From Gammaproteobacteria bacterium (GTDB lineage: Bacteria > Pseudomonadota > Gammaproteobacteria > SZUA-152): a stretch of DNA of 57,514 nucleotides. Where the stretch lies: contig DROS01000048.1 of the NCBI GenBank assembly GCA_011321815.1, positions 1 to 57,514 of the forward strand, given 5' to 3'. Of the stretch, positions 40,262 through 42,313 are shown piece by piece; position 1 is the first letter of the stretch; every line of letters starts with the position of its first letter. The translations under genes and the position numbers were made by a program. Under the pieces are notes generated by a model. That model did no database searches, was not told the origin of the DNA, and saw nothing but the letters and a program-made list of their open reading frames with translations.

Positions 40262-41137
40262 TCAAGGCTGTACTGTTTCGCTGGGTGTCTGTGCTGTTGT
40301 GGCTTGCCCATCCTTGTACTGGGTGGGCCAGATCAGCAGGACTTCACGAGCCTGTTCCAGACGTGCGGTAGGCATGGCGGAAATGACAGCATAGGGCAGG
40401 GTGGGGTCTTTGATGATCTCGGTCACCACGGCCACAGGATAACCCGCCGGGAAACGCCCACCCAGCCCGGAGGTGGTGAGCAGATCACCTTCAACGATGT
40501 CAGCACTGATGGGCAGATAGGGAATATCCAGTTTGTCGGGTGCGCCGGTACCCAGGGCAATGGCGCGCAGACCATTGCGATTCACCTGGACGGGAATGGC
40601 GTGATTGGCATCAGTGATCAACATGGCGGTGCTGGAAAACAGCCCAAGATGGACGATTTGTCCCATGGCGCCACCGGCGTCCATCAGGGGCTGACCAAGA
40701 TATACTTCATTGCGGCTGCCTTTGTTAATCACAATTTGCCGGGTGAAAGGCTCAAGGTCCACCGACAGCAACTCGCCAATAAGCACCCGCTCACTGATTT
40801 TTTTGGAGGATTGCAGCAATTCGCGCAGGCGCTGGTTTTCTGCCTTCAGTGACTGGAGTTTTTGCAGCCGTGCTTCGAACAGGGTTTGCTGGAGTTTAAG
40901 CCGGTCATTTTCCTCCAGCAGGGTTTCCCGGCTGGAAAGACTATCGCTTACCCAATGGGTTGCCGCGACGGGCAGGTTGACGATGTATTGCAGCGGATAA
41001 ATCAGCAGAGAAAGGCCGGAGCGAATGCCTTCAAGGTGATTCTGGCGGTGATCCAGGGCCATCATCAACGAAGAAAGGATGACCAGTACCACCAGACGGG
41101 TGGTAATGGACGGCCCCTGTATGAATAGCGGTTTTAT
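40262..41137 (-). CDS. mreC: Rod-shape protein MreC, apparent ATA start
   Basis: About 291 residues if started at 41137. A membrane anchor (LVVLVILSSLMMALDH) precedes a periplasmic coiled coil (about residues 70-115, ending ENQRLRELLQ) and the two-barrel MreC domain. It scaffolds the elongasome in the periplasm. The first canonical start, GTG at 41092, would fall inside the membrane anchor and remove the conserved N-terminus. Fifteen codons upstream, an ATA codon begins IKPLFIQGPSITTRL, which matches the usual MreC N-terminus (MK.LF..GPS..TR), and AGAGG lies 8 bases before it. No ATG, GTG or TTG lies between that point and the upstream in-frame stop. Confidence 0.9.
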   Translation of the reverse strand: MKPLFIQGPSITTRLVVLVILSSLMMALDHRQNHLEGIRSGLSLLIYPLQYIVNLPVAATHWVSDSLSSRETLLEENDRLKLQQTLFEARLQKLQSLKAENQRLRELLQSSKKISERVLIGELLSVDLEPFTRQIVINKGSRNEVYLGQPLMDAGGAMGQIVHLGLFSSTAMLITDANHAIPVQVNRNGLRAIALGTGAPDKLDIPYLPISADIVEGDLLTTSGLGGRFPAGYPVAVVTEIIKDPTLPYAVISAMPTARLEQAREVLLIWPTQYKDGQATTAQTPSETVQP

Positions 41138-41150
41138 CTTGGGAACCTCT
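41135..41150 (-). promoter_or_regulatory. Ribosome site and ATA start codon of mreC
   Basis: On the minus strand AGAGG (41150-41146), an 8-base spacer and ATA (41137-41135) sit where an ATG is expected. The ribosome site supports initiation here, either at a rare AUA codon or at an ATG altered by mutation or sequencing error. Confidence 0.65.
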
Positions 41151-41227
41151 AAATGAGCAAAAAATGGAGACTCAAATGTGTTTGCCTGTTATCCACGCCG
41201 GTTGGCGGAAACGGTGACTCTTTCCGT

Positions 41228-42313
<1,086 letters not shown>

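Follow-up and report, generated by a model that had tools for sequence, protein, structure and literature searches.

The mreC gene in the 57,514-nucleotide stretch of gammaproteobacterial DNA analysed here (hereafter called the "window") very likely starts at an AUA codon behind a strong Shine-Dalgarno (SD) sequence, as a member of a conserved class of AUH (AUA, AUC or AUU) starts in which a weak codon, discriminated against by IF3, would limit MreC. The AUA start codon, the conservation of AUH, the strong SD sequence and the weaker SD sequence at AUG loci are supported by sequence comparison, and the lower MreC output and the IF3 dependence would follow by analogy with known genes.

The start site of mreC in the window

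The window mreC lies 90 nt downstream of mreB, measured to the ATA codon, and the ORF beside it on the minus strand is, by its position, presumably mreD (Table 1). Its product clears the curated PF04085 cut-off (118.3 bits versus 28), and the N-terminal peptide opened by ATA is KPLFIQGPSITTRL. The first-pass annotation had claimed that reading upstream of the first canonical codon restores the conserved MreC N-terminus and reaches an AUA start 8 nt after AGAGG. The alignment bears this out: Met1 of E. coli MreC (PDB 7eft, identified as such through its match to the E. coli mreC start) falls on the ATA codon, and the AGAGG sequence, at exactly that spacing, pairs with the anti-SD sequence with a duplex energy of −6.5 kcal/mol. 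The 17 codons between the in-frame TAA and ATA contain no ATG, GTG or TTG, as had also been claimed, and no CTG. The mreC start thus has the features of conserved AUH starts, namely an ATH codon at the Met1 of its orthologue with no canonical start before the stop, retention in relatives, and a strong SD sequence at normal spacing.

Table 1. Features around the mreC start, in window coordinates
Feature	Position	Strand	Remarks
mreB	41228..42280	-	ATG start; upstream gene; Pfam PF06723, E 2.3e-148
mreC, ATA to stop, 291 aa	40262..41137	-	Pfam PF04085 MreC, E 3e-34
ATA, putative start codon of mreC	41135..41137	-	aligned with E. coli MreC Met1 (7eft); ATA/ATC in relatives
Shine-Dalgarno AGAGG	41146..41150	-	8 nt spacer to ATA; read from sequence
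In-frame TAA ending the frame upstream of mreC	41189..41191	-	18 codons 5' of ATA
mreC codons 2-15, conserved N-terminus	41093..41134	-	lost under a GTG start; pN/pS 0.095
First canonical codon downstream, GTG (codon 16 of mreC)	41090..41092	-	rejected as start

Does any special element accompany this codon? At the Rfam gathering threshold, the whole window contains one tRNA and no known RNA element at the mreC start, and no special RNA structure was found there (z 0.07). An altered initiator tRNA was considered and rejected, because the sole match to the pattern used for the search, one anticodon arm, has the normal CAU; a variant tRNA that departs from this pattern would escape the search. 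A start at the preceding codon, AAG, was likewise rejected, because that codon varies among the relatives (AAG, ACA, AAA, AAC and CAC).

Conservation of the AUH start

The first-pass annotation had proposed comparing the codon in close relatives. Among 17 relatives (genome_contigs), 16 have ATA at the mreC start place and the remaining one has ATC; the loci of 16 of these recur among the genomes of the wider survey, and each was counted once. Within the window's own family, all 22 loci have ATA, ATC or ATT at this place, and a GTG lies further upstream in-frame in one of them. Across the 22 members, pN/pS is 0.095 for codons 2-15 and 0.37 for codons 16-60, as against 0.89 in the 14 triplets that precede ATA. 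By these ratios, purifying selection acts strongly on codons 2-15 but not on the upstream triplets.

For the wider survey, mreC starts were collected from searches of 57, 370 and 199 genomes, together with E. coli K-12 and one further locus (L018). Among 191 mreC loci from the same GTDB class, ATH is the sole candidate in 107 (37 ATT, 35 ATC and 35 ATA), a canonical candidate exists in 80, and four have neither; these loci are largely the best-scoring matches to a profile that was itself derived from ATH members, with one or two loci for most families, and 107/191 is therefore not a population frequency. A canonical codon is also present farther upstream in 11 loci with ATH at the start place. 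By family, 53 of 106 have only ATH, 10 are mixed, 40 have only canonical candidates and three fall elsewhere, so that at least one ATH-only genome occurs in 63 of the 106. In a more even subset, drawn from the phylum (L161-L219), canonical codons prevail: 13 of 59 loci are ATH-only, and five more combine ATH with a canonical codon farther upstream (the other same-class matches listed for this draw comprise three that were already in the survey and five that were left unfetched). Ten loci from other classes, excluded from the 191, all have a canonical codon upstream. The survey supports the AUH start of mreC as a widespread, conserved class in Gammaproteobacteria, as far as alignment can tell. 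MreC function does not depend on an AUH start, because 40 of the 106 families, E. coli included, have only canonical candidates; the E. coli mreC starts with ATG behind a weak SD sequence (−3.0 kcal/mol).

Two loci of one family (L130 and L150, f98) have ATC right after an in-frame TAA, three codons 5' of the aligned place, and their N-terminus is extended. They are likely another AUH variant on the evidence of this arrangement, and stand among the four loci with neither candidate; their ATC was seen by eye and not recounted. Two other MreC matches contain one internal in-frame stop, TAA in G048:C1:30349-31152 and TGA in G543:C1:2644962-2645789, and both genomes are listed as 100% complete.

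Next, we compared 64 representatives (63 families and L018), which were selected for ATH at codon 1. Directly after ATH, K2 is conserved in 55 of 64 and F5 in 59 of 64, and upstream of it only the SD columns and triplet −1 show raised conservation. C stands at −2 and −1 in 67% and 59% of the ATH representatives versus 27% and 27% of the ATG families, and A at +4 in 95% versus 59%. As a control, mreB has a canonical codon 6-20 codons 5' of the MreB N-terminal motif in all 77 readable loci (of 191; the rest are too short or lack the motif). The nearest such codon is ATG in 65, TTG in 11 and GTG in one, by which true starts are not implied.

The class apparently includes Pseudomonas, again by sequence comparison. 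The chain in PDB 6zlv is P. aeruginosa MreC, according to an excerpt of PMC8137920, and matches one 6.6 Mb genome with 100% identity over 176 residues. We infer from this identity that the genome belongs to P. aeruginosa, with the same N-terminus in strain PAO1. All 25 genomes searched in its genus have ATH at the mreC start place (23 ATC, one ATA and one ATT), and 23 of the 25 lack an upstream canonical codon. The same excerpt names Pro114, Phe115, Arg175, Glu188 and Arg190 of P. aeruginosa MreC, and in the matching genome all five residues fit a numbering that begins at codon 17, a GTG. The numbered P. aeruginosa MreC therefore probably lacks 16 N-terminal residues, with the GTG start placed too late, which suggests that the protein of the structural literature misses its positively charged N-terminus.

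Shine-Dalgarno strength and the competing readings

The SD sequence is stronger at ATH starts (mean −7.26 kcal/mol, n=107; shuffled −4.45) than at ATG starts (mean −3.45 kcal/mol, n=39; shuffled −2.14), with p=1e-12, and five GTG/TTG mreC starts average −3.44 kcal/mol. This contrast is partly one of base composition, because GC content is lower at the ATG loci (upstream GC 0.48 versus 0.59). The excess over shuffles of the same locus is −2.77 for ATH versus −1.21 for ATG (p=5e-5 by locus), and the difference also holds by family (64 ATH versus 22 ATG; p=1e-4). An SD core is present in 60 of 64 ATH representatives versus 9 of 22 ATG families, and in those 60 representatives its end lies 4-9 nt from the ATH codon. 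In 55 ATH loci, the mean energy is −3.56 kcal/mol for mreB versus −7.65 for mreC (paired p=2e-9), while the two genes show no difference in 12 ATG loci (p 0.26), the comparison using the best-SD mreB candidate of each locus. The strong SD sequence is particular to mreC in the ATH loci.

Do canonical codons further downstream provide the start instead? The GTG at 41092 is the first canonical codon in the window gene, and a downstream start of this kind agrees with the numbering published for P. aeruginosa. MreC would then lack its first 15 residues, and the upstream conservation would have some other cause. Against this, codons 2-15 evolve as protein, the E. coli MreC in 7eft contains the residues that would be dropped, and the downstream canonical codons, reached in 106 of the 107 ATH loci at a median truncation of 15 aa, are nearly without SD sequences (mean −0.45 kcal/mol). 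We consider the GTG start very unlikely. The first-pass annotation's main alternative was a single substitution or sequencing error. Taken as a sequencing or assembly error or a lone substitution of ATG, this reading draws on nothing beyond the rarity of AUA starts. It is refuted, and its probability is negligible, because the relatives and other families keep the ATH codon: all 17 relatives share the codon class, as does at least one genome in each of 63 of the 106 families.

A more substantial alternative accepts AUH as the true start and denies the throttle: the codon would be a historical state kept by drift, and the strong SD sequence would give ordinary output. Compensatory evolution, as described in an excerpt of Belinky et al. 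(PMC5622118), predicts what was found here, an SD sequence that is stronger where the start is AUH. The third base of the codon speaks to the contrary. ATA is one transition from ATG, yet on an MreB tree, where the 145 ATN starts require at least 48 changes of the third base, 32 to 37 of the changes are confined to A, C and T, and only 11 to 16 involve G. Were the base neutral, with a twofold excess of transitions, G should take part in about half of the changes, and the observed share lies below this naive half with a binomial p of 1e-4 to 0.015. The tree comprises 173 loci, 28 of them without an ATN state; 18 of the 191 loci, eight of them ATG, were omitted for want of a readable MreB. The test is weak by itself, since the counts are parsimony minima, the MreB stretch is short, the eight ATG loci are missing and p is 0.015 at the upper count. 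ATG is also absent from all 25 genomes of the genus that matches 6zlv. On balance, we regard retention by drift as rather unlikely, and prefer the reading in which the conserved AUH start is a weak one that limits MreC.

Known AUH starts and the meaning of a probably weak mreC start

An AUU start codon limits the output of pcnB. This gene, which begins with AUU in E. coli according to an excerpt of PMC9410913, resembles mreC as a single gene with such a start and differs in function. The best-known likeness is infC, for which excerpts give AUU in E. coli (PMC9410913), AUU in Xanthomonas (PMC5559785) and AUA in S. aureus (PMC13009471). In the window's own genome, infC (L159, G000:C62) has GGAGG and then, in-frame, TGA AGC ATC GCT CAA, with ATC as the start, and serves as a positive control for the use of AUH starts by the organism. 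Both infC and mreC combine an AUH start with an SD sequence. However, infC encodes IF3, and its codon closes an autoregulatory loop because the product is IF3; MreC (PF04085) is not a translation factor, and such autoregulation has no counterpart at mreC. In S. aureus, ccpN (AUA) and cvfC1 (AUU) have conserved starts with strong or extended SD sequences, as an excerpt of PMC13009471 reports, and mreC is like them in joining a conserved AUA or AUU to a strong SD sequence. Their products, in Firmicutes, are a regulator of metabolism and a small protein, whereas mreC is an elongasome gene and carries the codon in dozens of gammaproteobacterial families.

Among the matches listed from open-licence PMC full texts, the passages that matched describe conserved AUH starts for only a few bacterial genes and contain no report of a non-AUG start of mreC; those papers that have both mreC and start-codon words use them apart. 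Conserved AUH starts are already known as a kind, and the mreC member and its breadth appear to be new within this open-licence literature.

We propose the following mechanism. The strong SD sequence would guide the ribosome to the AUA codon of mreC, which is presumably read with fMet by the ordinary initiator tRNA. IF3 would act against AUH when this codon occupies the P site, as the cases of infC, pcnB and ccpN suggest, and by this discrimination mreC initiation would be kept to a fraction of that on AUG. In S. aureus reporters, AUA and AUU starts yield about 10-30% of AUG (excerpt of PMC13009471), and the first-pass annotation's suggestion that less MreC than MreB would be made fits such starts by analogy. 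The strong SD sequence could restore mreC output. Low initiation may be reached by two routes, AUH with a strong SD sequence or AUG with a weaker one, which is in line with the SD/start-codon compensation of Belinky et al. (PMC5622118, excerpt); the AUH route would in addition bring IF3 sensitivity to mreC. MreC would thus remain scarce compared with MreB and in balance with MreD. About 180 copies of MreC are present in E. coli, where its excess alters cell shape, an effect that MreD partly relieves (excerpt of PMC7793260); mreC is essential there (excerpt of PMC4394545).

If the AUH start is true, gene finders limited to ATG, GTG and TTG can miss or shorten the MreC N-terminus. The conservation of AUH in mreC suggests a built-in weak start signal, and it makes the question whether cell shape is controlled by initiation fidelity readily testable. 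As a tentative extension, which we hold possible though doubtful, mreC may be a second broadly conserved IF3-gated gene of Gammaproteobacteria, in which the IF3:30S ratio would set MreC synthesis and so link initiation capacity, and with it the rate of growth, to the lateral wall and its extension and to cell shape.
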